Shown here: in pieces, positions 12 through 26,947 of the stretch
How positions within the stretch are numbered: position 1 is the stretch's first letter
How the letters are laid out: each line of letters opens with the position of its first letter
DNA from: Pseudomonas sp. p1(2021b)
Lineage (GTDB): Bacteria; Pseudomonadota; Gammaproteobacteria; Pseudomonadales; Pseudomonadaceae
Length of the DNA stretch: 64,000 nt
Assembly (NCBI RefSeq): GCF_020151015.1
Contig: NZ_CP083746.1
Location: 755,001-819,000, forward strand
Direction of reading: 5' to 3'
Translations under genes and position numbers: made by a program
Notes under the pieces: model-generated
The model's input: the letters and a program-made list of their open reading frames with translations, nothing else
Database searches by the model: none
What the model was told of the DNA's origin: nothing

Positions 12-269
12 ATGAGCAAGATCAGCCCAATCCAGGCCACCAGTGCTCCGCAGTTCGACCCTGCCAACACCATCATCCGATTTCCCGAGGTCGAGGCCAT
101 CACCGGCTTGGCCCGCGCCACCGTCTACAAGCGCCTCAAGGATGATCCGACCTTTCCCAAGCCGGTATCGCTGAGCAACAGCAAGTCGCGTGGCTCGCCC
201 GTGGGATTCGTTTTGGCTGAGATTCAGACCTGGGTTCGCCAGCGCATCGCATTGCGCGAGGTGGCGTAA
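12..269 (+). CDS. AlpA-family phage regulator
   Basis: Small (85 aa) winged-helix DNA-binding protein of the AlpA/excisionase-like family found in P4-type satellites, where it controls integrase or early genes. After a 20-residue leader the sequence reads IIRFPEVEAITGLARATVYK, the typical AlpA start in which a helix-turn-helix recognises DNA, followed by a wing containing SRGSPVGF and a last helix with IQTWVRQRI. It is the first complete gene of a rightward operon; the next gene starts directly after its stop. The family assignment is from sequence wording; its target is unknown. Confidence 0.85.
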   Translation: MSKISPIQATSAPQFDPANTIIRFPEVEAITGLARATVYKRLKDDPTFPKPVSLSNSKSRGSPVGFVLAEIQTWVRQRIALREVA

Positions 270-2868: not shown

Positions 2869-3088
2869 GGTCACGCCCATTCGTCGCAAGGGTGCCGGTG
2901 GCCCACCGACCGCTGGTGCCTACATCGACAGCGCCAGCTATGCCCTGCTGGTGGAAACCCTGGTGGGCTTCCTCGAACTGCGCATTGCCGAGGGTGACGC
3001 TGGTCGTCACTGCCCTGAGCTGGAGCGCCTGACCAACCAACTGGACCGGCTGGCCAAGCGCTTCACGCCGCCGCTGGGGGCCGCATGA
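2861..3088 (+). CDS. hypothetical satellite protein before primase
   Basis: 75-aa protein; ATG 2861 chosen because it sits in the stop region of the previous gene and gives a compact helical protein (YALLVETLVGFLELRIAE, ELERLTNQLDRLAKR). The stop overlaps the primase start (ATGA), so it is made with the replication proteins. Possibly a small replication accessory factor; that is inference from position only. Confidence 0.6.
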   Translation: MSKVTPIRRKGAGGPPTAGAYIDSASYALLVETLVGFLELRIAEGDAGRHCPELERLTNQLDRLAKRFTPPLGAA

Positions 3089-3975
3089 CCGACGCGACGA
3101 TCCTTTTCCATGACGTGCTCCAGTCGGCCTATGGGCCGCTCGACTGGCTGCCCTTGGACGATGGCGACATTCACCGCTTCCACGTCCCCGGCGACAAGCC
3201 CGGCACGCTCAATGGCTGGTACTGCCTATTTTCCGATGGCATCGCCTCGGGTGCGTTCGGGAGCTGGAAGACGGGCGGCACCAGCACCTGGTGTAGCCGT
3301 GAGCCGGTAGACGCCCGCGAATCTGAGCAGGTGCGCCAGCGCATCGAGCAGGCCCGGCGCCAGCGCGAAGCCGAACGGCAACGGCGCCAGCTCAAAGCGG
3401 CTGGCCAGGCTCAACGCTGGTGGCGTGACGCTCGCCGTGCTGACCCGGCCCACCCTTACCTGGCCGCCAAGGGCATTCGTGCCCACGGCCTGCGCCAGCG
3501 TGGTGACGATCTGCTGGTGCCGCTGTATGCCGGGAGCGTGCTGGTCAACCTGCAACGGATCGCCCCGGACGGTGACAAGCGCTTTCTGTATGGCGGGCGG
3601 ATCAATGGCGTCTACTCGCCGCTGGGGCGCATCACGCCGGGCAAGCCACTGTGCATTTGTGAGGGGTGGGCCACGGGCGCCACGCTTCACGAGAGCGGCT
3701 ATACCGTCGCCTGCGCGATGAATGCCGGAAACCTGAAACCGGTGGCGCTGGCGCTACGGGCCGACTACCCCGACACCGAAATCATCGTCGCGGGTGATGA
3801 CGACCGCCAGACCGAAGCCGAAGGCAAGGGCAATCCGGGGCGTACCGCTGCCCATGACGCCGCTGTCGCGTGTGGTGGCCTTGTGACCTTCCCCGAGTGG
3901 CCCGCCGATGCGCCGCTGACCCTTTCCGACTTCAACGACCTAGCCGCCTGGAGGTGCCACCATGCGCCCGCCTGA
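3085..3975 (+). CDS. TOPRIM-domain primase
   Basis: 296-aa DNA primase-like protein for satellite replication. Residues 1-75 form the small N-terminal domain common to phage primase/helicase proteins (PLDDGDIHRFHVPGDKPGT, GWYCLFSDG) without the CHC2 zinc cysteines. A charged helical linker (about 80-115) follows. The TOPRIM catalytic domain is at about 185-270: LCICEGWATGATL supplies the catalytic Glu and IIVAGDDDR the metal-binding Asp cluster. Stop overlaps the ATPase gene, so primase and helicase are split here, unlike the fused alpha protein of P4. Confidence 0.88.
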   Translation: MTDATILFHDVLQSAYGPLDWLPLDDGDIHRFHVPGDKPGTLNGWYCLFSDGIASGAFGSWKTGGTSTWCSREPVDARESEQVRQRIEQARRQREAERQRRQLKAAGQAQRWWRDARRADPAHPYLAAKGIRAHGLRQRGDDLLVPLYAGSVLVNLQRIAPDGDKRFLYGGRINGVYSPLGRITPGKPLCICEGWATGATLHESGYTVACAMNAGNLKPVALALRADYPDTEIIVAGDDDRQTEAEGKGNPGRTAAHDAAVACGGLVTFPEWPADAPLTLSDFNDLAAWRCHHAPA

Positions 3976-5758
3976 AACCAACGTCATCAATCTGCGCCCC
4001 GAGGCGCCCAGGGTTGAGCCTGACCGCCCGTGCTGGGGTGTGTATGAGCACTGGGTAACGAATGAGAAGGGCCGCAGGCTCAAGCCCGGCGTGTACTGGC
4101 ACGGCTTCAAGCGCAGCGCTGGCGACGATGACAGCGACGACGACAAGGCCGACCGCCCGATCACTGACGAATGGATCGCCACCCCCGTGACCGTGGCCGC
4201 TCGCACCACCAACAGCGACGATGGCAGCGAAGGCCGGTATCTGCGCCTGCTCACCGACAGCGGCCCCAAGGACTGGATTATCCCCATGGAGGTGTTCGGC
4301 GGGAGTGGTGAAGACGCCAGGCGGACGCTGTTCGGGATGGGCGTCATCATCGCCTTGAAGAAGCGCGGCCAGTTCATGGAGTACCTGCTGGACCAGCGCC
4401 CCGCCGAAGTGTTCGCCACCACCTGCCGCCCCGGCTGGCATGAGTCGGGCGCGTTTGTGCTGCCTGGCCGCACCATTGGCAGTGACAAGGTGCGGTATCA
4501 GGCCAGCGGCAAGGGGCAGAACCTGTTCAGCGTGCGCGGGAGCCTGGACGGCTGGAAGGCCGAAGTTGCGGCCAAGTGCGAGGGCAATCCGGTACTCACC
4601 CTTGCCATTGGCTGCGCCCTTGCTGGCCCGTTGCTGAGCCTGGTGGGCGTGCTGGGTGGCGGTGTTCACCTGGTGGGCGACAGCTCCAGCGGCAAGTCAC
4701 TGGCGCAATTGATCGGCTCATCCGTATGGGGCGACCCCGGCATATTCGCCGCATCGTGGGATATGACCAAGGGCGGTCTGGAAATCGAGGCATCGAGCCG
4801 CAACGACACCATGCTGCCCCTGGACGAAATCAAACGGGCTGACCCCAAGCGCGTACAGGAAATGGCCTATTCGCTCGCCAACGGCCAGGGCAAGGGCACC
4901 ATGACCCGTGACCGGGAGGCACGCGGCAAACTGAGCTGGCGCTTGCTGGCACTCTCCAGCGGTGAGCGTTCCCTGTCTGAACACGCGGCCATCAGCGGCA
5001 ACGCCGCCCACGCTGGCGCTGAGCTGCGCATGGTGGACGTGAACGCCGGTACGCGTACACACCGCGCCTTCGACGAATTGCACGGCCTGGAGGGAGCCGA
5101 CTTCCACCGCCAGCTCACCGTGGCTGTGGGAGCGAACCACGGGCACATCGGCCCGGCATTCGTGGAGAAGCTGCTGGCCAGCGACGACCGCCCCGGCCTG
5201 CTAGAAGACTTCGCCGGTATCCGCGCCCAGTTTGTTGAAGACAACGCCCAAGCCGGACGGGTGGCGGATCGCTTCGCAGTGATCGCGCTGGCGGGGGAAA
5301 TGGCCATCGCCTATGACTTGCTGCCCTGGACGCCGGGTAGCGCTCTGGCCGATTGCCAGTTGCTGTATGGCGAATGGCTGAGCCGGGTGGGCGGTGGCAA
5401 TGCCGAGGATCGCCAGATACTGGCGGGCATCCTCGATTTCATCGACAAGCACGGCAGTAGCCGGTTTTCGGACGTGAATGACCAGACGCCTGACGCCAAG
5501 GTGTTCAACCGGGCCGGGTACTGGAAAGTCTCAGGCGGCAAGCAACTGTACCTGTTCAACAAGTCGGCATTGATCGAGGCAGCGCATGGGTACGGGCTGA
5601 GCCGCATCGTGAAAGCGCTGGATGGCGCCAGCGCGATTGCTGAGCGTGGAGCGGATCGGAAGCGGCACGCCAAGAAGTACCGCGTACCGGGTGGCGGTTC
5701 ACCTTGGCTGTATGTGATCGACCCCGAAGCCCTGGACAGTGAAGGTGGTGCTGTATGA
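3962..5758 (+). CDS. DUF927 helicase-like ATPase
   Basis: 598-aa replication ATPase of the DUF927 family, the helicase half of P4-like replication modules. Walker A is GDSSSGKS at about residues 239-246 and the Walker B-like acid pair lies in MLPLDEIKRA shortly after. A N-terminal domain of about 200 residues precedes the ATPase and a winged-helix-like tail (SSRFSDVNDQTPDAKVFNRA, about 500-530) follows and could bind DNA. It overlaps the primase by 14 bases and ends 52 bases before the GTGGGAACA iteron array, which it or a partner probably recognises. Confidence 0.88.
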   Translation: MRPPETNVINLRPEAPRVEPDRPCWGVYEHWVTNEKGRRLKPGVYWHGFKRSAGDDDSDDDKADRPITDEWIATPVTVAARTTNSDDGSEGRYLRLLTDSGPKDWIIPMEVFGGSGEDARRTLFGMGVIIALKKRGQFMEYLLDQRPAEVFATTCRPGWHESGAFVLPGRTIGSDKVRYQASGKGQNLFSVRGSLDGWKAEVAAKCEGNPVLTLAIGCALAGPLLSLVGVLGGGVHLVGDSSSGKSLAQLIGSSVWGDPGIFAASWDMTKGGLEIEASSRNDTMLPLDEIKRADPKRVQEMAYSLANGQGKGTMTRDREARGKLSWRLLALSSGERSLSEHAAISGNAAHAGAELRMVDVNAGTRTHRAFDELHGLEGADFHRQLTVAVGANHGHIGPAFVEKLLASDDRPGLLEDFAGIRAQFVEDNAQAGRVADRFAVIALAGEMAIAYDLLPWTPGSALADCQLLYGEWLSRVGGGNAEDRQILAGILDFIDKHGSSRFSDVNDQTPDAKVFNRAGYWKVSGGKQLYLFNKSALIEAAHGYGLSRIVKALDGASAIAERGADRKRHAKKYRVPGGGSPWLYVIDPEALDSEGGAV

Positions 5759-5788: not shown

Positions 5789-6076
5789 ATTCACAGGAAC
5801 CTAGATTCGGTGGGAACAGTGGGAACAGTGGGAACAGCCTTGAAATCCGGGGCTTCCAGCCGTTCCCACCTAATAAAAAGAGTGGGAACAAGTGGGAACA
5901 CACAATCGCTTTCCAATATAAGGGCGCGGCCAGTCTGCCTTGTTTGGTTATCACAGTTCCCACTAAAAACGGGGTGGGAACAAACTGGGAACAGAAAAAC
6001 ACCCCTGGAGGCCTCGAATTTACTGGGGCGTTCCCACTGTTCCCACTGTTCCCACACTTTTTGAATTCACAGGAAC
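5789..6076. repeat. GTGGGAACA iteron array, putative replication origin
   Basis: Dense array of a 9-bp iteron. Exact forward copies start at 5810, 5819, 5828 (tandem), 5882, 5892 and 5974, with a one-mismatch copy at 5985. Exact reverse copies (TGTTCCCAC) start at 6038 and 6047, with one-mismatch reverse copies at about 5861, 5955 and 6029. So three tandem forward copies on the left face three tandem reverse copies on the right, with AT-rich DNA between. The whole is bracketed by direct repeats of ATTCACAGGAAC at 5789-5800 and 6065-6076. P4 uses repeats of the form GGTGAACAGT in ori and crr; the shared GAACAGT core supports an initiator-binding origin. A weak reading frame crosses it but its peptide merely spells the repeat. 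Confidence 0.8.
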
Positions 6077-7012: not shown

Positions 7013-7951
7013 ATGGTCATGCTGAAACAGGCTGATTCAGCCGAAAAAATGAGACACCGGGTTTCAGATGAGCAGCGCCAGCAGGTACTGGACCTGCGCC
7101 GCCGTCACTCGCTGCGTGAGGTGGCCGAGATTACCGGCCTGCCACTGGGGACGGTGAAGACCCTGGTTTCACGCTCAGGGGCGTTCCGCGACAACGAGCA
7201 GCATCGCGCCATGTTCACCCTGCCGCCGATCAGCGCCAGCACCGAGACCCTGCCGAGCGTGCCTGAGCTGCCGCCGCAGAAGGTGGTCACCGGGGATAAG
7301 GAGGTGGATGCGGTGCTGTGGCTGCGCTCGATCATCAGCACCGGTCAGGTCGCCCTGATTGAGCGGGCCATGGAGGGCGCCAAGAAGATCAGGACGCCGC
7401 TCGATGTGCTGGAGAAGCGGTACCGGGATTACCTGGTGGCCACCAACCCCGGCCACCCATTCGCCGCCATGTCGTCGTTCGGCTTCGCTGACCTGGAGGC
7501 GCTGGCCACTCGGGCCATTGAGCAGCACCGGCTGAGGCTGGAAGGTGCCGCTCGCTTCGGTGATGCCCTGCTGGCCGACACCGAGGCGGAATCGTTCTGT
7601 ATCGAGGCGCTGAGGGGCCTGGAGCAAAGCGGCCCCCTGCTCGACTTCGACAAGGGCCAGGTAGCCGCCCGGTTCAACGCCCACCCTGAGCTGCTGCCGC
7701 ACACCCTGGCGGATTGCCTGTACGAGCTGGGGTATTGGGATCAGCTTTACCGCCTTCGCAACGCCGCAGACCGTGACGCCAGCGACGGACCGCCCGAAGC
7801 CACGGCGCGGGATTGGTTTGTGTTCGGCCTGCTGGCGCAGATACGACCCCGTGACAAGGCCGAAGCGCTGGCGGTGTTCCGCTACCTGGTCGCCAGCCAA
7901 CGCGACGACATGGCGGAGTCAGAGGCAATTCTTTGCAACTTGATCGGTTGA
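7013..7951 (+). CDS. helix-turn-helix protein of the satellite
   Basis: 312-aa protein with a homeodomain-like helix-turn-helix at about residues 17-50 (VSDEQRQQVLDLRRRHSLRE then VAEITGLPLGTVKTLVSRSG), similar to resolvase-type and small terminase DNA-binding heads. The rest is a helical domain without recognised motifs. Could be a regulator or a small-terminase-like packaging adaptor; no large terminase gene is present in the window. Starts three bases after the previous stop. Confidence 0.65.
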   Translation: MVMLKQADSAEKMRHRVSDEQRQQVLDLRRRHSLREVAEITGLPLGTVKTLVSRSGAFRDNEQHRAMFTLPPISASTETLPSVPELPPQKVVTGDKEVDAVLWLRSIISTGQVALIERAMEGAKKIRTPLDVLEKRYRDYLVATNPGHPFAAMSSFGFADLEALATRAIEQHRLRLEGAARFGDALLADTEAESFCIEALRGLEQSGPLLDFDKGQVAARFNAHPELLPHTLADCLYELGYWDQLYRLRNAADRDASDGPPEATARDWFVFGLLAQIRPRDKAEALAVFRYLVASQRDDMAESEAILCNLIG

Positions 7952-8022
7952 CCAGCCCGATCAATCGCACCACTGGGCAGTTGCCCACAACAAGCGCCAG
8001 CGGCGCATCAAGGAGTTTACTC

Positions 8023-8622
8023 ATGGCAGCTACAGCAGCTCACTACACCCCAAGGACCAAAATCCGCTTACTTGGCTTCCTTCGGAAAAAATACTTCAAG
8101 GAGCAGAGTTTTCTGCTGGACCGGGGCGACACAAGGGAGGCGGTAAAAGCAATCGATGTGAACTATCCGGGCTTCGCCCAAGACGTGGCCGATGCTGAAA
8201 GTCGAGGGCTGCGGTTCGCGATTTTCAAAAATGGCAAAAACATCGGACAGGATGAACTAGACCTGGGTGGCGCTCGGGAGCTTTGGTTCGTGCCAGTGAT
8301 CCAGGGCAGCAAGCGGGCAGGAGTTCTGCAAACCATCATCGGGGTAGCGCTGATCGTCGCGTCGTTTTTTGTCGCGCCAGGGTCTCAGCCGGCCTTCCTT
8401 GCCGCAGGTATTGGATCAACAGCGGGTGGCGTAATCCAAATGCTTAGCCCGCAGGCTGGTGGCCTCTCTCAGAGCGGAGCACCGGAAAACCTTCCTAGTT
8501 ACGCGTTCGGCAGCGCCAAGAATACTGTGGCGAGTGGAAACCCCGTGCCAATCTGCATCGGCCATCGACGTTGGGGCGGAGCGATCATTTCTGCCTCAAT
8601 CGTTGCGGAGGACAAGGTATGA
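8023..8622 (+). CDS. lambda gpI-like tail assembly protein
   Basis: 199-aa protein of the phage lambda tail assembly protein I family. ATG 8023 is chosen because AAGGAG precedes it by nine bases; the frame is open further upstream. The N-terminal beta-grasp-like part contains RIRLLGFLRKKY-type wording and ELWFVPVIQGSKRAG; the middle is hydrophobic and Gly-rich (VALIVASFFVAPG, AAGIGSTAGGVIQML) and the end NPVPICIGHRRWGGAIISAS is typical of the family. In tailed phages gpI acts at the tail tip with gpK/gpJ. Here it stands alone without any other tail gene, so it may act on a helper or an incoming phage. Stop overlaps the next start. Confidence 0.75.
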   Translation: MAATAAHYTPRTKIRLLGFLRKKYFKEQSFLLDRGDTREAVKAIDVNYPGFAQDVADAESRGLRFAIFKNGKNIGQDELDLGGARELWFVPVIQGSKRAGVLQTIIGVALIVASFFVAPGSQPAFLAAGIGSTAGGVIQMLSPQAGGLSQSGAPENLPSYAFGSAKNTVASGNPVPICIGHRRWGGAIISASIVAEDKV

Positions 8623-10276: not shown

Positions 10277-10327
10277 AGGATTGATCGTTAGCCAGTCGCA
10301 TCGAGGACTGGCCAGCCCCGTCAGGCA

Positions 10328-11899
10328 CTAACATTTGCTAACAGGGCAGGCGCTCGGATGGCGGCGCCGGGCCGTTCTGATGTCAACATTTGTCAACGTC
10401 TGGCCGGGGCGCTGGCGCGGAACCGATCACTCGGTATCCACCCTGGTATCCACGAAATAGCAGCTCCAGCAGGCAGTGCCCTGGCCTGGTTCGCGCAGCG
10501 CTTCACGCTCGATCGTCACGCAGTCGGAGTGCGCAACCCTGCGACGGTGCGCAGCCAGGTACGCACTGTTAGTACGCATTCTGGCGCTGGCGCTGCGCCA
10601 GTTCGCACCGGTGGTTCGCACACAGGTTCGCAACCCCCATAGCGCGAACCTTCCGTGCGAACCTGGGCGACCTGCCTGTTATCAAAAGTTATGGTTTCCA
10701 GGTGGAGGTTTCCACTGTGGTTTCCACGGTATTGCGGCTTCCGGTGACCACCATGCCGCAGTGAATGACCACATGAAAACCACAATGCTCGCTGCCCAGC
10801 GCCAGCCGATCCGATCTCAGGTTTTCTCAGGTTCCACCGTGTAGGAGACGACACACTGTGTTGGAATCAACACGGCAGGCTGGCCGCTTAGATTTACCGG
10901 GCCTTTACCGAATGTGAGACAGGCATGAGACGGAACCCGCACCGGGTGGGCGTTAGAGGCCCGGCCTATGCGGGAGGTCGTCAAAGTCGAGGCTCTGGCC
11001 GTCTCATACCCCTGACAGACCCCTGACGGATTTTGGACCGCTTTGGACGGATCGGCGCAGGCTTTGCGTGGTGGTGCTGGCGCTATGGCGCGTAATGGCC
11101 GGGCTGCCAGGCTGGTGGTGGTCTGCTCAGGCCATACGCTCCTCCAGAATCGCCGGAGGGAACTAGACCGGCACTAGACGGCAATAGACGGTGGCCTGTG
11201 GCCCCATTCGCTGGCTCACCTGCCGGGCCTGGCCTGGGCCAATGCGTGATGGGCTGGCGCGGACAGTCCCGTCTAATGCCGAAGCCCGAATTCTGGACAG
11301 GCTCTGGACGGATCAGCGCCAGCACCAGCAGGTGGAATGCCGTAGGAGCGGTGAATTTCCTGATGCGCGGGAGGCTGTCCACCATCGACCGGCGTCTACT
11401 CGTCCAGAATGGCCAGGGGCGGCGAAATTCTTGACAGGCCTTGACGGAATCCTTGACAGGGCCTTGACGGATTCAGCCGCTGGCGCTTGAGCAGGATTGG
11501 CTGTAAGCCTTGCTGTGCAAGGTCTGGCGCTGTATCCGATTGACCTGTGGGAGCGGAAACCGTCAAGAATTTCCAAGTGTGCCCGTCAAGAGAAATCGGG
11601 CGGTTCAGAACCTGACAAAACCTGACATGCCGGGCCTGTGAAGGGGGCGACCAAAGTGATGTACCCCTGATATCAGCCTGGGGCAAACCAGCGGCCAAGG
11701 ATGCGGAAAACCAGCAGGCTTGCATGGGGAAACCCCGCAGGCAAATCAGGGAAACCCTGAGCGCCGAAATTACCAATTCCGGCAGTCTCGACTGATATTG
11801 GTAGGCTCGTGGCACCATGGCGGGTAACGCCAGCAGCGTTACCTACATATACGGATGACATGCGCGAAAATTTAAAACCCTGACAGCAGGCCGTGACAG
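10328..11899. repeat. array of about 20 different short direct-repeat doublets
   Basis: No convincing gene lies between 10277 and 11980. Instead the stretch holds a series of short words each repeated once or more at a period of about one helical turn: CTAACA (10328, 10338), TGTCAAC (10381, 10391), GGTATCCAC (10433, 10445), GTGCGCA (10529, 10547), GTACGCA (10559, 10572), GTTCGCA (10601, 10614, 10626), GCGAACC (10644, 10657), GGTTTCCA (10693, 10707, 10719), ACCACA (10768, 10779), CTCAGGTT (10816, 10826), TTTACCG (10893, 10904), TGAGAC (10915, 10926), CCCCTGAC (11009, 11020), TTTGGAC (11032, 11042), CTAGAC (11163, 11174, near copy 11184), TCTGGAC (11292, 11303), CTTGAC (11430, 11440, 11452, 11463), CCGTCAAGA (11570, 11583), CCTGACA (11611, 11621), TGACAG (11881, 11894). 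Each word differs from its neighbours. Confidence 0.8.
11823..11843. repeat. inverted repeat GGTAACGC/GCGTTACC
   Basis: Perfect 8-bp arms at 11823-11830 and 11836-11843 with a five-base loop. No T-run follows on either strand, so an operator is more likely than a terminator. Confidence 0.5.
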
Positions 11900-11920
11900 G
11901 TGGCCGGTAGCCGTGGGCAA

Positions 11921-11941
11921 ACTACCCGGATGCTGGGTAGT
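11921..11941. promoter_or_regulatory. inverted repeat ACTACCC/GGGTAGT
   Basis: Seven-base arms at 11921-11927 and 11935-11941 separated by seven bases, lying 40 bases upstream of the small gene at 11981. Geometry fits a dimeric repressor operator for that gene. Confidence 0.45.
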
Positions 11942-11980
11942 TATCAGATAATCAGGCGCCACCATATCGAGGGCCGCACC

Positions 11981-12409: not shown

Positions 12410-12514
12410 TTTAGGTATATGTTTAGGTATACAGTGGTGGCTTGAGGCTATCTATAAGCCCTATTTTATTGGGCCAAAGGTGCCTGATTCGATTCCTGTC
12501 TCCGCACCATACAG
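12410..12514. other. possible right attachment region of the satellite
   Basis: A 10-bp direct repeat TTTAGGTATA at 12410-12419 and 12422-12431 (period 12) resembles paired arm-type sites of tyrosine integrases. About 60 bases further, ATTCGATTCC followed by TCTCCGCACCA (ending near 12514) reads like the T-loop and acceptor end of a tRNA, with terminal CCA, which integrating elements leave at one junction. The T-stem does not pair perfectly, so the identification is tentative. The remaining 12185-12611 sequence shows no convincing gene. Genes right of this point look chromosomal. Confidence 0.35.
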
Positions 12515-12611: not shown

Positions 12612-12902
12612 TTAATCGCATAATCGCTCAGCCGCCTTGCGGTAAACTTGCTCTCGCTCGCGTTTATTCACAGCGACGACAAATACTACGACCTCCCTCT
12701 CAATGACCTGATAAACCAGTCGGAAGCCACTGCTACGTAATTTAATCTTGTAGCAGTCCGGCAGACTGTGCAGCCGATTTGCCTCAACCCGAGGGTTGAG
12801 CAAAACCGAAGCTAGCTTTTTCTTGAATTGTTGGCGAACGGTGTCGCCTAGTTTTTGCCATTCTTTCAGTGCCCGAGCATCGAATTCGAGGTTATAGGTC
12901 AT
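12612..12902 (-). CDS. relE: RelE/ParE-family toxin
   Basis: 96-aa type II toxin, an mRNA interferase-like RelE protein. The sequence reads YNLEFDARALKEWQKLGDTV at the start and LPDCYKIKLRSSGFRLVYQV then VVFVVAVNKRER in the second half, the standard RelE pattern with conserved basic residues of the active face. It is downstream of and overlaps the antitoxin gene by 11 bases, the usual antitoxin-first order. Located next to the presumed satellite junction, where such modules often accumulate. Confidence 0.9.
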   Translation of the reverse strand: MTYNLEFDARALKEWQKLGDTVRQQFKKKLASVLLNPRVEANRLHSLPDCYKIKLRSSGFRLVYQVIEREVVVFVVAVNKREREQVYRKAAERLCD

Positions 12903-13131
12903 CCAGCGAAACCTTTACCCGTTGAGGGGCGGCGATGCGTTCGCGAACCGTGGCGAGCAGGGCTTCATCCTCTTCAGTCAGGAGTACCGGTTTGAAAGGT
13001 AGTTGCCCGCGCTCTGCCACATATTGCAACGCTTGCCGCATCAGCTCAGATGGCGTTACGCCCAATTTTTCGAGCTCGCGATAGGCGCGGATTTTGAGAT
13101 CGTCGTCGATACGAACATTGATGGACGCCAT
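12892..13131 (-). CDS. relB: RelB/DinJ-family antitoxin
   Basis: 79-aa antitoxin: ribbon-helix-helix N-terminus (ASINVRIDDDLKIRAYRELEKLGVTPSELMRQALQYVAERG, in segments) for DNA binding and dimerisation, and a toxin-binding tail (TVRERIAAPQRVKVSLDDL). It neutralises the overlapping RelE-like toxin and should repress its own promoter through the repeats just upstream at 13145-13172. Confidence 0.88.
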   Translation of the reverse strand: MASINVRIDDDLKIRAYRELEKLGVTPSELMRQALQYVAERGQLPFKPVLLTEEDEALLATVRERIAAPQRVKVSLDDL

Positions 13132-19853: not shown

Positions 19854-20386
19854 TGGCCAGCGTGCGGCTCTGGGACCCGTTGCTCAGGTGCTGCCACTGG
19901 TCCCTGGCCTTGGTGTTCTTCGCCAATTCCTTCTTCAACGAAGAGGGTGACGACTGGCATCAGTGGCTGGGCTACTACGCCCTGGGCTGCGTGGCCGTGC
20001 GCCTGGTCTGGGGCTTCGTCGGGCCGCCCAGCGCGCGCTGGGCGGACTTCTGGCCGACGCCGTCGCGCCTGGCGGCCCATGCCAAGGCGCTGGTGACGGG
20101 CGAGCCTTATCATCGTCTCGGCCATTCGCCGATCGGCGCGCTGGTGATGCTGTTGATGCTTGCCTGCGTCGTCGGGTTGGGCGTGACCGGTTGGCTGTCC
20201 CAGGAGGTCGATGCCCTGTGGGGCGTCGACTGGCCCACGGACCTGCACAGTGTTCTGGCCAACACTTTGCTGGCGTTGGTCTGCGTGCACCTGTTGGCCG
20301 CGGTGGTGGAGAGCGTGCGCCTGCGGGAGAACCTGCCACTATCGATGCTCACGGGCCGTCGCCGCCTGCCGGACGACCAGCGCTGA
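19853..20386 (+). CDS. cytochrome b561-type membrane protein
   Basis: 177-aa inner-membrane dihaem cytochrome b of the CybB-like family. It opens VRLWDPLLRCCHWSLALVFF with the first haem His in helix 1; further His ligands occur in DWHQW and late helices (HSVLANTLLALVCVHLLAAVVE). Four membrane helices. Such proteins pass electrons between quinol and periplasmic acceptors. Coupled to the PepSY gene through a TGATG junction. Confidence 0.85.
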   Translation: MASVRLWDPLLRCCHWSLALVFFANSFFNEEGDDWHQWLGYYALGCVAVRLVWGFVGPPSARWADFWPTPSRLAAHAKALVTGEPYHRLGHSPIGALVMLLMLACVVGLGVTGWLSQEVDALWGVDWPTDLHSVLANTLLALVCVHLLAAVVESVRLRENLPLSMLTGRRRLPDDQR

Positions 20387-20525
20387 CCCCCAGCTTGTTT
20401 TGAATCGCGCCAATCACCTCCGTAATATGTGTCGGATAACCTGCGGGGGTAGTCTCACCCTCTGATCAAACGGAATCGTCCCCAGCGGCGCGCTTCCTCG
20501 GCACAAACCTGAAGAGGTACAGACA

Positions 20526-21737
20526 TTGGCCATCATTCATCCCAAGGTTCGCGGTTTCATCTGCACCACGACTCACCCGAAGGGCTGCGAGCTCAACGTC
20601 CGTGACCAGATCGAAGCCACCCGCAAGCAGGGTGTGCGCGAAGATGGTCCGAAGAAAGTCCTGGTGATCGGTGCTTCCAGCGGCTACGGCCTGGCGGCGC
20701 GCATCACCGCAGCCTTCGGCTTCAAGGCCGACACCCTGGGCGTGTTCTTCGAAAAGCCGGGCACCGAGACCAAGGCCGGTACCGCCGGCTGGTACAACGC
20801 TGCTGCCTTCGACAAGTTCGCCAAGGAAGCCGGCCTGTACAGCAAGTCGATCAACGGTGACGCCTTCTCCGACGAAGCCCGCGCCAAGGTCATCGAGCTG
20901 ATCAAGAACGAAATGGGCGGCAAGGTCGACCTGGTGGTCTACTCCCTGGCCTCGCCGGTGCGCAAGCTGCCGCAGACTGGCGAACTGGTGCGCTCGGCGC
21001 TCAAGCCGATCGGCCAGCCGTACAAGTCGACCGCTATCGACACCAACAAGGACACCATCATCGAGGCCAGCATCGAGCCGGCCACCGAGCAGGAAATCAA
21101 AGATACCGTCACCGTCATGGGCGGCCAGGACTGGCAGCTGTGGATCGACGCCCTGGCCGGCGCCGGTGTGCTGGCCGAAGGCGCGCGTACCGTGGCCTTC
21201 AGCTACATCGGCACGGAAATCACCTGGCCGATCTACTGGCACGGTGCCCTGGGCCAGGCCAAGCAAGACCTGGACGAAACCGCCCTGCGCCTGGACAAGA
21301 AACTGGCCGCCGAGGTCAAGGGTGGCGCCAACGTGGCGGTGCTCAAGTCTGTGGTCACCCAGGCCAGCTCGGCCATCCCGGTGATGCCGCTGTACCTGTC
21401 GATGGTCTTCAAGATCATGCAGGAGAAGGGCGTGCACGAAGGCACCCAGGACCAGCTGGACCGCATGTTCCGCGACCGCATGTACCGCGCCGATGGCGCT
21501 GCCATGCCGGTGGACGAGAAGGCCCGCCTGCGCCTGGACGACTGGGAACTGCGCGATGACGTACAGGACGCCTGCAAGGCCCTGTGGCCGCAGGTGACCA
21601 CCGAGAACCTGTTCCAGCTGACCGACTATGCCGGTTACAAGAAGCAGTTCCTCAACCTGTTCGGCTTCGAGCGCGCTGACGTCAACTACGACGAAGACGT
21701 GGCCACCGACGTGAAGTTCGACTGCATCGAGCTGTGA
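20526..21737 (+). CDS. fabV: enoyl-ACP reductase FabV
   Basis: 403-aa NADH-dependent trans-2-enoyl-ACP/CoA reductase, last step of the fatty acid elongation cycle; FabV confers triclosan tolerance in pseudomonads. The NADH loop is [11 protein letters not shown] near residue 48, and the catalytic Tyr-X8-Lys occurs in [11 protein letters not shown]. The start is TTG 20526 with GAGG upstream; the protein then begins with the family wording [16 protein letters not shown]. Full length. Single-gene unit. Confidence 0.96.
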
Positions 21738-21753
21738 CGCCGGCCGCACTGTC

Positions 21754-21854
21754 CCTGTAGGAGCGGGCTTGTCCCGCGATTGGGCCGCCCCTGCCCACGC
21801 GATTGCATGGCAAGGGCTTCGCCCTTGATCGCGGGGCAAGCCCGCTCCCACAGG
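21754..21854. repeat. REP pair
   Basis: Two inverted REP copies (21754-21789 and 21815-21854) facing each other, with the GCTTCGCCC hairpin between them. Located downstream of fabV. Confidence 0.85.
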
Positions 21855-21955
21855 TGAAGTGCAGCCGTACCCTTGATCGTGTGGGGCGGCCCGAAAAGCC
21901 CCACACGAGCCGCTTGTTTTTGCTAGCGTTGGCGCACCAGCACAGGAAGCGCGCC

Positions 21956-22864
21956 ATGAGCAGCCTCATCCAACCCGCCACCGCTTTTCACCACACCGCT
22001 GCCGACGGCTACACCCTCGGCGGTTTCTGCTGGCGCCATGCCGAACCCGACGCCCAGCGCCCGCTGGTGATCATCAACGCCGCCACCTCGGTGCGCTGCC
22101 GCTACTACGCGCGCTTTGCCGACTACCTCTTCGCCCAGGGCTTCGATGTGCTGACCTACGACTACCGGGGCATCGGCGAATCACGCCCGGCGTCGCTGCG
22201 CGGCTTCCAGGCGTCCTGGAGCGACTGGGGGCGGCTGGACTTCGAAGCCATGCTGCACCTGGCCGCTGAAACCTTCCCCGGCCAGCCGGTGGATGTGGTA
22301 GGCCACAGTTTCGGCGGCTGTGCGGTGGGCCTGGCGCCGTCCGGCAGCCGGCTGCGGCGGGTGGTGATGGTGGGCGCGCAGTTCGCCTATTGGCGCGACT
22401 ACGCAGCCGACCAGCGTTGGCGCCTGCTCGGCAAATGGCACTTGGTGATGCCGCTGCTGACTCGCTTGTGCGGCTACTTCCCCGGCAAGCGCCTGGGCTG
22501 GATGGAAGACACCCCGGCTGGGGTGGTGCACGACTGGACCACCCGCACGCCGCGCTACGAGCATCGCCCCAGTGGCCGGGCGTTGGCCGAGCTGCCGTTC
22601 GCCAGAGTGCGCGCGGCGACCCTGGCGATCAGCCTGACCGACGACCCGTTCGGCACCGTGGCCGCCACCGAGCGTCTGTTGGGGTACCTGCAAGGTGCTG
22701 AGCGTCGGCACCTGCGCCTGGCGCCCGGGGATATCTCGGCGGGTGAGATCGGCCATTTCGCATTCTTCCACGACCGTTTCCGCGAAAGCCTGTGGCCGAT
22801 TGCCTTGGCCTGGTTGCAGCAGGGTGGGCTGCCCGATCAGGTGCCGGGACGAGTCATCGGTTGA
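21956..22864 (+). CDS. alpha/beta hydrolase
   Basis: 302-aa serine hydrolase. The nucleophile elbow is VGHSFGG (about residue 119), the oxyanion region LVIINAATSVRCRYY, and the catalytic His lies in IGHFAFFHD. Start ATG 21956 has AGGAAG upstream. The YheT-like DYRGIGESRP motif suggests a hydrolase of esters or thioesters; substrate unknown. Flanked by REP pairs on both sides, so it is transcribed alone. Confidence 0.85.
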   Translation: MSSLIQPATAFHHTAADGYTLGGFCWRHAEPDAQRPLVIINAATSVRCRYYARFADYLFAQGFDVLTYDYRGIGESRPASLRGFQASWSDWGRLDFEAMLHLAAETFPGQPVDVVGHSFGGCAVGLAPSGSRLRRVVMVGAQFAYWRDYAADQRWRLLGKWHLVMPLLTRLCGYFPGKRLGWMEDTPAGVVHDWTTRTPRYEHRPSGRALAELPFARVRAATLAISLTDDPFGTVAATERLLGYLQGAERRHLRLAPGDISAGEIGHFAFFHDRFRESLWPIALAWLQQGGLPDQVPGRVIG

Positions 22865-22876
22865 GGTTGCCTGATC

Positions 22877-22985
22877 CGGCCCAATCGCGGGATAAGCCCG
22901 CTCCCACGAGGCCCGTGGTTGCTTGCGGCATTTTCGGCGTTGCTGCGGCCCCTGTGGGAGCGGGCTTGTCCCGCGATTGGGCCGG
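22877..22985. repeat. REP pair
   Basis: Inverted REP copies at about 22877-22911 and 22951-22985 between the convergent hydrolase and chromate transporter genes. Confidence 0.85.
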
Positions 22986-22996
22986 CCCTGCTGACT

Positions 22997-24316
22997 TCAA
23001 ACGTGATACCCATACAGCGTCGCCAGCAACCCCGCCAGCGCACAAGCGATCAACACCTCCAGCACCCCGCGGCGGAACAGCAGCAACCCCACCGCCGCCA
23101 GCACCGCAATCAGCAACGCCAGCCAATCGACCCCCGCGCCGAACCCATGGGGCCAGAACACGTGGTAGCCGAAGAACAGCGCCAGGTTGACGATCACCCC
23201 CACCACCGCCGCGCTGATCGCCGTCAGCGGCGCGGTGAAACGCAGCTGCCGCCGTGTGCTTTCCACCAGTGGCGCGCCGATCAGGATGAACAGGAACGAA
23301 GGCAGGAAGGTGAACCAGGTCACCAGGCACGCCGCCAGGGCGCCGGCGAGGAACGCCTGGTCGGCGCCGAACTGCGCCTGCACGTAGCCGCCCACGAAGC
23401 CGACGAAGGCCACCAGCATGATCAAAGGCCCCGGCGTGCTTTCGCCCAAGGCCAGCCCATCGATCATCTGCGTCGGCGTCAGCCAGCCGTAGTAGGTCAC
23501 CGCCCCCTGATACACATACGGCAACACCGCATAGGCGCCACCAAAGGTCAGCAAGGCGGCCTTGGTGAAGAACCAGGCCATCTGCGTGAAGGTACCCTCC
23601 CAGCCGAACAGCAACGTCAGCGCGGCCATCGGTAGGCACCACAGCGCGGCGCCACAGGCCACCAGCCACAGCAGGCGTGGCCAGCGGAAGCGGGTGTGCT
23701 CCGGCTGCTGCGAAGGTTCTTCGGCCACCGATTGCTGCCCGGCGCTGGTGCGCACGGTCTGGAACAGCTGGGGTTGCCAGCGCCCACCCAGGTAGCCGAG
23801 CACCCCGGCACCGATGACGATCACCGGGAACGGCAGGCCCACGCCGAACAAGGCCACGAACGCCGCCAGGGCGATGGCCCACAGCGCGGCGTTGTGCAGC
23901 ACACGCGAGCCGATGCGCCACGCGGCCTGCAGCACGATGGCGGTGATCGCGGGCTTGAGCCCGTAGAACAGGCCGGCCACCACCGGCTGCTGGCCGTGGA
24001 CGACATAGATCCACGACAGGCCGATGAGGATGAACAGCGACGGCAGGACGAACAACCCGCCAGCGACGATGCCGCCCCAGGTGCGGTGCATCAGCCAGCC
24101 GAGGTACGTGGCCAACTGCTGGGCTTCGGGGCCGGGCAGCAACATGCAGTAGTTGAGGGCGTGGAGGAAGCGCGACTCGCTGAGCCAGCGGCGTCGCTCG
24201 ACGATCTCGCGGTGCATCAGGGCGATCTGCCCGGCGGGGCCACCGAAGCCGATGAAGCCCAGCTTGAGCCAGAACAGCATGGCCTGGCGGAAGGGGATAG
24301 GGTGCTCGGTCTGCAT
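22997..24316 (-). CDS. chrA: chromate transporter ChrA
   Basis: 439-aa inner-membrane CHR-family efflux protein with two homologous halves. Each half has the signature glycine motif: KLGFIGFGGPAGQIALMHRE near the N-terminus and FTKAALLTFGGAYAVLPYV after the centre, followed by LPGPEAQQLATYLGW and STPGPLIMLVAF. About ten membrane helices; a hydrophilic loop (QQSVAEEPSQQPEHTR) joins the halves. Exports chromate or sulfate-like anions. Single gene, no ChrB regulator nearby. Confidence 0.93.
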   Translation of the reverse strand: MQTEHPIPFRQAMLFWLKLGFIGFGGPAGQIALMHREIVERRRWLSESRFLHALNYCMLLPGPEAQQLATYLGWLMHRTWGGIVAGGLFVLPSLFILIGLSWIYVVHGQQPVVAGLFYGLKPAITAIVLQAAWRIGSRVLHNAALWAIALAAFVALFGVGLPFPVIVIGAGVLGYLGGRWQPQLFQTVRTSAGQQSVAEEPSQQPEHTRFRWPRLLWLVACGAALWCLPMAALTLLFGWEGTFTQMAWFFTKAALLTFGGAYAVLPYVYQGAVTYYGWLTPTQMIDGLALGESTPGPLIMLVAFVGFVGGYVQAQFGADQAFLAGALAACLVTWFTFLPSFLFILIGAPLVESTRRQLRFTAPLTAISAAVVGVIVNLALFFGYHVFWPHGFGAGVDWLALLIAVLAAVGLLLFRRGVLEVLIACALAGLLATLYGYHV

Positions 24317-24352
24317 GCAGGTCTATCCAGGGGCAGGGGAGGGCTGTGCCCT

Positions 24353-24415
24353 CCCGATCGCCGGCAAGCCGGCTCCCTCACGGCCAGTGGGAGCCGGCTT
24401 GCCGGCCATCGGGCG
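24353..24415. repeat. REP-like palindrome pair
   Basis: GCCGGCAAGCCGGC-type palindromes repeated head to head upstream of chrA; a different REP subtype (GCCGGC stem) from the others here. Confidence 0.75.
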
Positions 24416-24421
24416 GTGATG

Positions 24422-24763
24422 TCAGGCGTTACGGGTCAGTGGCTGCGCCGCGAACTTCACCCCGGCCAGCCCATGCTTGATCAGCGCACGGATATTGGCA
24501 TGGTCGCTCCCTTCAGGGGTGGCCAGCACACTGCGGTAGTGCTCGCCAAACGCCAGCAACGCTTCCTGGTCGCTCAACCCTTCGAGCAAGGCCAGGCCCA
24601 GGGTCTTGCACGACCCTTCGTTCTGCCCGGCGGCGTTGGCCACGCCGCCATTGTCGAAGGCCTGTGGCTGGTAGCTGTAGTGGGCGGCGACGAACGCCAG
24701 GGTATCGGCAAATACATGCTCGCCGCTGGCGAGGCTGGCGCGCAGGGTGGTCAGATCAGTCAC
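24422..24763 (-). CDS. HopJ-type protein
   Basis: 113-aa protein of the HopJ family, named from a P. syringae type III effector but found widely in non-pathogens. Family wording: SGEHVFADTLAFVAAHYSYQPQAFDNG, then EGSCKTLGLALLEGLSDQEAL and FGEHYR. GTG 24763 is the start, overlapping the end of the DUF1244 gene by eight bases, with AAGGAAAG ahead of it. Here it is probably a house-keeping protein of the folM operon, not an effector. Confidence 0.88.
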   Translation of the reverse strand: MTDLTTLRASLASGEHVFADTLAFVAAHYSYQPQAFDNGGVANAAGQNEGSCKTLGLALLEGLSDQEALLAFGEHYRSVLATPEGSDHANIRALIKHGLAGVKFAAQPLTRNA

Positions 24764-25052
24764 GGGGCTTTCCTTTTTCGAACGTAGCTTGTTGCTCGGC
24801 GCTGGCTTCTTTCTGGTACTGGGCCTTCCAGTCGGCGTAGGGCATGCCGTACACGCGCTCGCGGGCGTCATCCAGGCTCACCTCGATCTGACGTTCGTCG
24901 GCGGCGGCCTTGTACCACTTGGACAAGCAGTTGCGGCAGAAACCTGAGAGGTTCATCAGGTCGATGTTTTGCACATCGGTGCGTTTTTGCAGGTGTTCGA
25001 CCAGGCGCCGGAACGCGGCGGCTTCGAGTTCGAGCTGTTGTTGCGGGGTCAT
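24756..25052 (-). CDS. DUF1244 family protein
   Basis: 98-aa small protein of the DUF1244 family: FRRLVEHLQKRTDVQNIDLM then NLSGFCRNCLSKWYKAAA with the conserved FCRNCL cysteines, and VYGMPYADWKAQYQ. Function unknown; cysteines might bind metal. Lies 10 bases after folM and overlaps hopJ, forming a three-gene operon seen across pseudomonads. Confidence 0.9.
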   Translation of the reverse strand: MTPQQQLELEAAAFRRLVEHLQKRTDVQNIDLMNLSGFCRNCLSKWYKAAADERQIEVSLDDARERVYGMPYADWKAQYQKEASAEQQATFEKGKPRD

Positions 25053-25062
25053 GGGGCTTCCC

Positions 25063-25770
25063 TCAGGTCATGCGGTTCTTCAGGTGGCGGCCACCGTTGA
25101 TGACCACCTGGCTGCCGGTGCTGTACTGGCTTTCGAGCAGGAACATCACCGCCTCGATCAGCGGGCGGGCGCCGGGCTCGAATTCCAGCAGGGCTTTCTT
25201 CAGGGTCTGCTGGCGATAGGCGTCGTCGCCGCCTTCCTTGAGGATCAGCAGGCCAGGAAGGATACCGTTGACGCGCACCTTCGGCGCGTATTTTTCAGCG
25301 AACGACAGCACCATGTTCTGCAGTGCGGCCTTGGTCGCGGCGTAGCCGATATGGCTCTTGCTGCCTCGCGAGGAGGTTTCGTCGCAAATGTGGATGATAT
25401 CGGCCTTTTCCACCTTGGCCAGCAGCTCGCCGAGGGCCAGGTTGAGGTGGTAAGGCGCCTCGACGTGCAGGCGGAACATGGTCTGCAGGTTGTCCAGGCC
25501 ATCGTCGAGCCACAGCGATGCGTTGTGGATGATCGCCCGCAGGCCGTCGTGGTTGGCCTGCAGGTAGTCGATCAGGGCCTGGCGGTCGGCCTCCTGGCAA
25601 AGGTCGGCCCGGAACTGGACGATGTTCGGGTGTGGTGTGTGCGAGTGGATGCTGCGGCTGGCACTGACCACCGTGTGGCCGGCCTGTGCCAGTTCGAGGG
25701 CCAGGGCCAGCCCGACGCGCTGGCTGGCGCCGGTAACGAGGATTGGGCTGTTCATGTTCGAGGCAGTCAA
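25063..25770 (-). CDS. folM: dihydromonapterin reductase FolM
   Basis: 235-aa short-chain dehydrogenase making tetrahydromonapterin from dihydromonapterin with NADPH, the pterin cofactor of phenylalanine hydroxylase in Pseudomonas. N-terminal ILVTGASQRVGLALALELA binds NADPH; ASLW replaces the usual NAG motif (IIHNASLW); the catalytic Tyr-X3-Lys is GYAATKAAL. Ends with INGGRHLKN typical of FolM. A start inside at MNSPILVTG (25755) is an alternative. Confidence 0.9.
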   Translation of the reverse strand: MTASNMNSPILVTGASQRVGLALALELAQAGHTVVSASRSIHSHTPHPNIVQFRADLCQEADRQALIDYLQANHDGLRAIIHNASLWLDDGLDNLQTMFRLHVEAPYHLNLALGELLAKVEKADIIHICDETSSRGSKSHIGYAATKAALQNMVLSFAEKYAPKVRVNGILPGLLILKEGGDDAYRQQTLKKALLEFEPGARPLIEAVMFLLESQYSTGSQVVINGGRHLKNRMT

Positions 25771-25993
25771 CTTGTCTGTCCGTGCATTGATGGCCCCAGC
25801 ATACCCGAACTGTTTCCCTCTTGTGCGCTCGCGCCCGGAACCAGGGCGGCCGCATCACGTGCGCGCAACTTTTATGAACGAATCAGGCAGCGCTTGCCTC
25901 TGAGCGTGGTCCGCTGACCGTCCACCGGCGGGCGGGCTGTGCTGGACCTCGACCCAAGCCATCGTAGAATGCGTTCAATCATCAGGATACAGG

Positions 25994-26947
25994 GTGCCCG
26001 TGCACATGATCAGTCAGCTTCAAACGCCCCTGGGCGTCGCGGGCCTGGAGCACCAGGAGCTGTTTCCAATTCGCGAGGTGGCCCGCCTGACGGGCGTCAA
26101 TCCCGTGACCTTGCGAGCATGGGAGCGTCGCTACGGCCTGATCCAGCCGACGCGCACCGACAGCGGCCATCGGCTGTATTCCCAGGCCGACATCGACAAT
26201 ATCCGCAGCATCCTTGGCTGGTTGGAGCGCGGCGTGGCGGTGAGCAAGGTCGGCAGCATCCTGGCGCGCGACCAGGCGCTGGCGCAGGAGGCCCAGGGCT
26301 CCGGTAGTGAACATGAGCGGGCGCGCTGGCGCATGCAGGTGCAGGAGGCCGCCCAGCGCTTCGATGGCGCAGCGCTGGAGCGATTGTTCGACCAGGTGTT
26401 CGCCAATTACGCCCTGGACCAGGTGTTCGGTGAGGTGTTCATGCCGGCCTGGCAGGCCTTGCGCGCGGGGCAGAACGGTTTCGGGCGCGCCAGCCAATGG
26501 CTGTTCCTCGACCAGTTCCTGCGGGCCCGGGTGCTGTTGCGCCTGCAACTGGCCCGGGAACCCTGGAGTCGACGCGTGGTGCTGGCGCCCTTGTCAGGCC
26601 AATGCCAGGAACTGGAGCTGTTGGTGGCGGGGCTGCTGCTGGGCAGCGAGGAAGTGGGCGTCACGGTGTTGCCGGCCGGGCAGCCCTTGGAGGAGCTGGC
26701 GTTGGTCTGCGAGCGCCTGGCGCCCCACGCCCTGGTGGTGTTTTCCAACCAGCAGCCCACGGCGCAAGTGGGCAAGTGCCTGGCAAAGCTGAACCAGGGC
26801 GTTGGGTGCCCGGTGATGTTGGCGGGGGAGGCGGCGGAACTGGCCCAGGACAGCCTGGTGGGCAGCCCGGTGGCCTGCCTGGGGGCGGAGGGTAGCCTGA
26901 TGCGCAGGCGCCTGCGACAGTACCTGGCCGGTCAGTTGGATACGTGA
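25994..26947 (+). CDS. MerR/LitR-like transcriptional regulator (PplR type)
   Basis: 317-aa regulator with an N-terminal MerR helix-turn-helix (FPIREVARLTGVNPVTLRAW followed by ERRYGLIQPTRTDSGHRLYS) and a C-terminal cobalamin-domain-like fold. The His that binds B12 in CarH/LitR is missing (APLSGQCQELELL in its place) and the W-x9-EH motif is absent, which fits class II LitR proteins that do not bind B12. In P. putida KT2440 class II LitR proteins (PplR) work with the LOV protein encoded beside them. Starts at GTG 25994 or ATG 26006. Convergent with the PilZ gene, overlapping 16 bases. Confidence 0.83.
   Translation: MPVHMISQLQTPLGVAGLEHQELFPIREVARLTGVNPVTLRAWERRYGLIQPTRTDSGHRLYSQADIDNIRSILGWLERGVAVSKVGSILARDQALAQEAQGSGSEHERARWRMQVQEAAQRFDGAALERLFDQVFANYALDQVFGEVFMPAWQALRAGQNGFGRASQWLFLDQFLRARVLLRLQLAREPWSRRVVLAPLSGQCQELELLVAGLLLGSEEVGVTVLPAGQPLEELALVCERLAPHALVVFSNQQPTAQVGKCLAKLNQGVGCPVMLAGEAAELAQDSLVGSPVACLGAEGSLMRRRLRQYLAGQLDT

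Follow-up and report, generated by a model that had tools for sequence, protein, structure and literature searches.

Doublets of a Pseudomonas satellite match sites at phage terminase small subunit genes and probably form a library of packaging sites

We analysed a stretch of 64,000 nucleotides of Pseudomonas sp. p1(2021b) (contig NZ_CP083746.1, positions 755,001 to 819,000 of the forward strand), which is called the window below. The window contains a satellite, and an array of short direct-repeat doublets lies between the last lipoprotein-type gene of this satellite and its right end (10326-11899). Most of the words in the array match sites at phage terminase small subunit (TerS) genes, and these sites are of three classes. 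Judging from the identity, spacing and gene position of the words, from their covariation with a helix of TerS, and from their recurrence and lower divergence in related satellites, we think, with a probability of roughly 0.8, that its doublets make up a library of pac-like sites, at which packaging would be initiated and which would let one satellite use many helpers. The binding of TerS, the initiation of packaging and the benefit of the words to the satellite are what we infer from these data.

The satellite and its doublet array

The features that characterize the satellite are as follows.

12..269, + strand: AlpA regulator gene (PF05930, E 1.4e-13)
3085..3975, + strand: Toprim primase-type gene (PF13362, E 2.5e-9)
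3962..5758, + strand: DUF927 helicase-type gene (PF06048, E 7e-64), 84% identical to phiAH14b
5810..6055, + strand: origin-like iterons GTGGGAACA, direct then inverted, period 9-10 (sequence repeats)
12488..12504, + strand: candidate attR, a 17-bp repeat common to the tRNA-Thr on the left (sequence match)

An integrase match was found left of the window, beside tRNA-Thr (ORF G000:C1:752312-753625), and the phiAH14b-like gene set of integrase, AlpA, Toprim primase and DUF927 helicase is present in this satellite, which also encodes a KilA-N protein. No capsid or terminase families were found among 10 proteins scanned in one search and 3 in another. The motifs of the three TerS families treated below were not found in the window either; that is, the satellite does not have the own-TerS trait of SaPIs and PICIs. 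The GTGGGAACA iterons lie downstream of the DUF927 gene and differ among relatives, most of the stretches of 27 relatives having variants of them. A tail assembly protein is encoded at 7933-8622 (phrog_32, E 2.9e-57), and phiAH14b likewise has a 'tail assembly protein I'. Near attR, a TTTAGGTATA doublet of period 12 (12410-12431) offers candidate integrase arm sites. About 40 bp at the right end of the satellite (11920-11960) match, at 88-95%, the Pseudomonas genomes G065 and G170, which have no DUF927 match, and two small minus-strand genes at 12612-13131 resemble a toxin-antitoxin pair.

The first-pass annotation had described dense short doublets and had proposed that their density be compared with that of shuffled sequence. 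We counted exact repeats with a period of 8-20 in positions 10278-11960. There were 27 repeats of at least 6 bp (mean 5.0 and maximum 13 in 500 shuffles), 19 of at least 7 bp (mean 1.35 and maximum 6 in 500 dinucleotide shuffles) and 9 of at least 8 bp (mean 0.37 and maximum 3 in 500 shuffles), so that the array was far above the shuffles at all three lengths and the density claim was borne out. When the repeats of at least 7 bp were counted per 1.6-kb step, the two steps over most of the array gave 16 and 18, and the rest of the window gave 0-8.

The bounds given previously (10328..11899) were also good, as were the periods of 10-14 with one of 18. That is, the period is 10 for TGTCAAC, TCTCAGGTT and AACCTGACA, and otherwise 10-12 for the GAC types and 12-14 for the GTT/CAC types, with a single 18. 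Inverted words, which had likewise been reported, are present as two copies of GCGAACCT at 10644-10664 and as CCGTCAAGA at 11560-11568 and 11583-11591, 23 bp apart. Within the array region, a 23-bp unit occurs three times at 11675-11744 (70% matches), and terS sites do not explain it.

Matches to sites at phage terS genes

The words of class 1 (GGTATCCA, GGTTTCCA, GTTCGCA, GTACGCA) match sites within phrog_1206 terS genes, those of class 2 (TCTGGACAGG..TCTGGACGG and others) match sites just upstream of DUF2280 genes, adjoining the large terminase, and those of class 3 (AACCTGACAAAACCTGACA and others) match sites within Terminase_2 terS genes. Most of the library words have their counterparts in or adjoining a phage terS gene, which is the position that we took to mark a pac/TerS site. 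The sites of the array are listed below.

10326..10344, - strand: class 3 site CTGTTAGCAAATGTTAGTG, 19/19 identical to codons within the Terminase_2 terS gene of L327
10381..10399, - strand: class 3 site ACGTTGACAAATGTTGACA, 17/19 with the terS gene of L328
10433..10453, + strand: class 1 site GGTATCCAC twice, period 12, 19/20 with L294 terS
10490..10521, + strand: class 1-like TTCGCGCA/TTCACGC/TCACGCA, words degenerate, 16/20 with terS of L317 and of L319
10529..10578, + strand: class 1, GTGCGCA twice and GTACGCA twice, 18/20 with L300 terS and 17/20 with L314 terS
10601..10632, + strand: class 1, GTTCGCA three times, periods 13 and 12, the word of 11/30 phrog_1206 terS loci, 17/20 with L304 and L316
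10644..10664, - strand: class 1, GTTCGC inverted (GCGAACCT twice, period 13), from the repeat scan
10693..10727, + strand: class 1, GGTTTCCA three times, periods 14 and 12, the word of 5/30 phrog_1206 terS loci, 16/20 with L295
10815..10833, - strand: class 3-type site AACCTGAGAAAACCTGAGA, 15/19 with L324 terS
10893..10910, + strand: TTTACCG twice, period 11, class 2-like layout, from the repeat scan
10914..10933, + strand: class 2 site GTGAGACAGGCATGAGACGG, 20/20 with 4/30 examined DUF2280 loci; 42/47 viral-contig matches at a DUF2280 start
11010..11029, + strand: class 2 site CCCTGACAGACCCCTGACGG, 19/20 with L385 and L387
11032..11050, + strand: class 2 site TTTGGACCGCTTTGGACGG, 17/19 with L374 and L389
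11162..11191, + strand: class 2-type site, ACTAGAC twice and ATAGACGG, 17/20 with L400
11292..11311, + strand: class 2 site TCTGGACAGGCTCTGGACGG, 20/20 with 4/30 examined DUF2280 loci; 79/88 viral-contig matches at a DUF2280 start
11429..11470, + strand: class 2 sites TCTTGACAGGCCTTGACGG and CCTTGACAGGGCCTTGACGG, the second 19/20 with L379, L398 and L402; 33/34 CCTTGACAGGNCCTTGACGG matches at a DUF2280 start
11560..11591, - strand: CCGTCAAGA twice, inverted, 23 bp apart, half-site like, read from the sequence
11609..11627, + strand: class 3 site AACCTGACAAAACCTGACA, among the matches listed 87/121 in a Terminase_2-type terS frame, codons NLTKPDI
11881..11899, + strand: TGACAG twice, period 13, from the repeat scan

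For the TTTACCG, ACCACA, GTGCGCA and TGACAG doublets of the window, no terS match was seen.

In order to judge these matches, we aligned each phage site to the array without gaps and took the identity at its best placement. The mean for class 2 (16 distinct sites from 30 loci and phiAH14a) was 0.864, compared with 0.630 in 100 shuffles (maximum 0.668) and 0.628 in 30 other pieces of the window (maximum 0.670); all 16 best matches were on the + strand, and two sites were exact over 20 bases. For class 1 (12 sites) it was 0.800, compared with 0.636 in 60 shuffles (maximum 0.671) and 0.648 in other window pieces (maximum 0.675). For class 3 (5 sites), where the protein motif may in part account for the repeat, it was 0.832, compared with 0.612 in 60 shuffles (maximum 0.674) and 0.589 in 30 window pieces (maximum 0.674).

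Among 199 Pseudomonas genomes, 28 contained the phrog_1206 terS gene, with 31 matches in all, and 30 loci were examined. A word was repeated at one place of the gene (about nt 163-210) in 28 of them, and ten kinds of word were seen: GGTATCCA, GGTTTCCA, GGTTGCCA, GGTTCGC, GGTACGCA, GGTGACCA, GGTAACCA, TTCACGCA, TTCGCGCA and GTGTTCCA. The exceptions were L318, with no repeated word, and L320, whose one repeat is probably due to chance. All but one of the ten words are doubled in at least one satellite. GTGTTCCA was not found as a library doublet in the satellites, because its single satellite locus (L033) is a terS gene. In several terS genes the copies stand at a 15/12 spacing, and in the window at 12-14. 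A scan of viral contigs for three copies of GTTCGCA led, among others, to terS genes with the library spacing (PHROGs 1206, 57 and 51). The genome to which the window belongs has itself a terS gene with the word GGTACGCA (L314), and the GTACGCA doublet of the library matches 17/20 over its site.

DUF2280 gave 41 matches in 41 of the 199 genomes. In all of the 30 loci examined, one GAC doublet, NNNNGACAGG..NNNNGACGG, exact or near, lies directly upstream of the start codon (ATG). A large-terminase gene follows DUF2280 in phiAH14a and JBD44 according to their annotation, and in L354-L356 by the look of the sequence. PHROGs lists DUF2280 under 'unknown function' (phrog_546; L404:28369-28845). Its place before the large terminase (TerL), its site, the covariation described below and the suggestion made for AH14a_p60 in the text of PMC4936722 together suggest that DUF2280/phrog_546 is a TerS. 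For class 3, the motif was taken from five distinct Terminase_2 genes among 30 loci, the others being weak or of different subfamilies; in these five, the stretch that encodes the motif (NL.KP.I or RLL.NV.I) contains a repeat with a period of 10 bp, and that of L327 is identical to window 10326-10344 (19/19). No solved structure was found for two of the TerS types, and no NCBIfam name for the three.

We then looked at the problem from the side of the phages. Bare 7-mers were given up for whole 20-bp sites, because TCTGGAC triples in viral contigs (74 matches) were by eye largely coding repeats such as collagen-like GPSGPS. Under a permissive DUF2280 signature, 154 of the 169 exact viral-contig matches of three class 2 sites had a DUF2280 start at most 70 bp downstream, and the remainder comprised 10 in libraries, 2 unclassified and 3 at contig edges. 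By site, TCTGGACAGGCTCTGGACGG had 88 matches, of which 79 stood at a DUF2280 start, 6 belonged to libraries, 2 were unclassified and 1 was at an edge; the corresponding numbers were 42, 4, 0 and 1 of 47 for GTGAGACAGGCATGAGACGG and 33, 0, 0 and 1 of 34 for CCTTGACAGGNCCTTGACGG. For AACCTGACAAAACCTGACA, 87 of 121 among the matches listed were in a terS frame and 34 of 121 outside the terS signature. Among seven named phage records, a library word is doubled in the terS of three (PS-1, PseuP_222 and Cruim01), and no exact 7-mer library doublet was found in the terS zone of the other four (phiAH14a, JBD44, Aurca01 and Orimi01); elsewhere in the records there were 13 library-word doublets, across six of the seven. 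JBD44 and Aurca01 show by eye an inexact class 2 site just upstream of DUF2280.

The relation between word and protein was examined in 24 distinct phrog_1206 TerS proteins. The second HTH helix tracks the word: it has D or E where the word is of the CGC type and H where it is of the CCA type. The middle bases are tracked by the next helix residue (T, G, N, A or S) and by the one that follows I/V (R, N, G, Q, M or L). That is, DTAIRK goes with GGTTCGC, [DE]GA[IV]RK with GGTACGCA, HTAI[NG][KR] with GGTTTCCA, HGAINK with GGTATCCA, HTAIQK with GGTTGCCA, HNTIMK with GGTGACCA, HATILK with GGTAACCA, E[AG]TIRS with TCACGCA and ESTIRS with TCGCGCA. The recognition helix lies outside the codons bearing the word. 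When columns are ranked by their association with the word, D33, R37 and T34 fall within the first 16, and the two highest, V62 and R67, overlap the word codons. Some columns that belong neither to the helix nor to the word (E87, T131 and T116) score too, and phylogeny therefore contributes to the association. L318 has the helix of L323, yet only diverged words, and the row of L320 carries no weight because the frame read there is not TerS-like. In DUF2280, the N-terminal part tends by eye to track the site, and the C-terminal half is, also by eye, common to phages with different sites, such as L398 and L400. This pattern is covariation on few lineages and not a proof of binding.

Libraries in related satellites

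Relatives of the DUF927 gene were found in 69 loci, which make 71 with phiAH14b (L090) and the window. At least 6 kb, counted from 600 bp past the gene, follow the DUF927 gene in 66 of the 71. The controls were upstream stretches of similar length at most; for the window, 20001-26242 was taken instead. At least 3 of 27 word types occurred as doublets in 41/66 loci and in 0/66 controls (maximum 1). The first-pass annotation would have been contradicted by related satellites without doublets at this place; instead the arrays recur. All three classes were present in 21/66 loci and none of the 27 words in 18/66, and a doublet array towards the right end is a trait which the window satellite has and which not every member shares.

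The phrog_1206 words were doubled in 1 to 30 of the 71 satellites, where one count of 1 is a terS gene itself and where the terS genes of L062 and L081 may have been counted for GGTTTCCA and TTCACGCA; permuted words averaged 0-0.35 (highest single 8), and the upstream control gave 0-1. Among the 256 NNNNGAC words, 233 were never doubled in the 71 satellites. The commonest were CCTTGAC (24), CTTTGAC (24), TCTGGAC (18), ACCTGAC (17) and TCTTGAC (13), followed by CCCTGAC (8), TGTTGAC (6), TTTGGAC (5), ACTAGAC (4) and ATTAGAC (2, with which three other words tie). The DUF2280 sites gave 21 four-letter words, to which seven of the ten just named belong, and ACCTGAC and TGTTGAC belong to class 3; 12 of the 21 were doubled in none of the 71 satellites.

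In alignments of relatives to the window, the words diverged by 6.9% (n=3916 positions) and the spacers by 17.7% (n=8997), a 2.6-fold difference to be read knowing that certain elements are represented by two loci and that BLAST seeding may favour words. L021, apparently the same element as L002, is shorter than the window by some 230-260 bp between the TTTGGAC unit and the TCTGGAC unit and has one fused doublet at the junction, with blocks 90% and 97% identical to the window; such a junction is of the kind expected from recombination between doublets. A terS motif was seen in 6 of 70 relatives. Two of these, L033 and L062, lack the array and have a TerS gene, beside which no TerL was seen. 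Short terS-like frames occur in L023 (97 aa), L046 (147 aa) and L081 (104 aa), and L040 has the motif only; one or more library words lie near each of the four. It is possible that new words come from a captured terS gene which decayed to its site.

Loci with a DUF927 protein of about 970 aa (most of L091-L120) have by eye few library words in their short flanks, and L094, with a 593-aa protein, has some. A distant search gave no match in plasmids and one phage record, phiAH14b. Long frames that look tape-measure-like (L023:14645-18013 and L526:8754-12800) lie in or beside elements bearing library words. L454, L459 and L478 are viral contigs of 36-41% GC with a similar mixture of terS-type words, which suggests that libraries may exist in other host genera.

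phiAH14b carries a library, in which the helper site ATTCTTGACAGGCTCTAGACGGAT, upstream of AH14a_p60, has a 22/24 match. The satellite of the window is of the same family and has the same kind of library. According to the text of PMC4936722, phiAH14b is induced together with phiAH14a and packaged in phiAH14a capsids, has no recognisable terminase, and is packaged, by the authors' inference, by a headful mechanism as at least trimers. Unlike the present analysis, the passages cited from that paper name no packaging site or repeat array, and 'direct repeat' occurs 0 times in its main text.

Possible mechanism, alternatives and significance

In the mechanism that we propose, each doublet would be the recognition site for a different phage TerS, and the sites would cover at least three TerS families, which differ in spacing and each comprise several specificities. 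Once a prophage or an infecting phage with a fitting TerS is active, that TerS would bind its doublet on satellite DNA that has been replicated, headful packaging by TerL would begin there, and the satellite would exit in the capsid of that phage. The helper range would in this way be widened in cis, with no need for the satellite to encode a terminase. We also consider it probable that the array resembles a keyring, with one site per specificity for at least three TerS families and with units gained and lost, which would set the helper range and provide a readable TerS-DNA code.

Part of the first-pass annotation agrees with this mechanism, namely paired half sites about one turn apart, forming in a satellite a library that addresses the proteins of other phages. 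The class of protein has to be changed, since it had named replication initiators, repressors or integrases as targets and the matches are instead at terminase small subunit genes, that is, genes of DNA packaging. Its idea of a decoy is retained with TerS as the target: the doublets might titrate the TerS of infecting phages, lower phage packaging and defend both host and satellite, packaging of the satellite being secondary or absent. The evidence for recognition is identical in both cases, and extra sites on multicopy satellite DNA would be expected to compete for TerS. However, one doublet per specificity seems few for titration, and phiAH14b, in which no terminase gene was found according to the text of PMC4936722, is reported to be packaged in helper capsids and therefore needs some packaging signal. 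We think the decoy function unlikely.

Diverged incompatibility iterons had also been proposed, and the doublets might in that case be initiator or incompatibility sites or borrowed origins. GTTCGCA does occur at period 9 in viral genes resembling replication genes, which are presumably of the DUF1376 type, and the satellite has iterons. These iterons (GTGGGAACA, 5810-6055) are of another form, however, and the spacing differs: words with the library spacing (GTTCGCA 12/13) fall in or at terS genes. We give this explanation almost no credence, and P4-type iterons were rejected since spacings and positions fit terS. The doublets could finally be debris, that is, remnants of terS or packaging regions caught by recombination and without present use, and the terS-like frames beside or near the array in L023, L040, L046 and L081 are a possible source of words. 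Against this stand the 2.6-fold lower divergence of the words, their recurrence across many loci and the window being free of terS motifs of the three families, and the chance that debris explains the array seems very small.

The pac-like library may be compared with known satellites. P4, which uses the cos site type of its helper P2, is known with a single site type and a single helper group. Like P4, the satellite would carry the packaging signal of the helper in cis and use the helper terminase in trans; unlike P4, it has many sites, for at least three TerS families, in a pac-like form. SaPIs and PICIs have their own TerS, or helper cos/pac sites. Here as there, helper packaging would be redirected through TerS specificity, and the relatives L033 and L062 encode a TerS; SaPIs, however, change the terminase, whereas this satellite collects sites. 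Satellites are already known to mimic packaging sites. In the literature searched, no title or start of an abstract described an element with a library of many sites that serve three or more terminase families. Nor did any assay of binding or packaging with these words come to light.

According to passages of PMC11389934, packaging sites are often small, degenerate or unknown, which hinders the pairing of satellites with helpers. Candidate sites can now be read directly for three TerS families, together with a recognition code, and 'who packages whom' thereby becomes predictable. DUF2280/phrog_546 is given a likely function, that of TerS. If our reading is true, the code obtained from the library and from phage terS genes would predict which phage packages which satellite, and the library shows how a satellite could stay mobile as the prophages of its host change.
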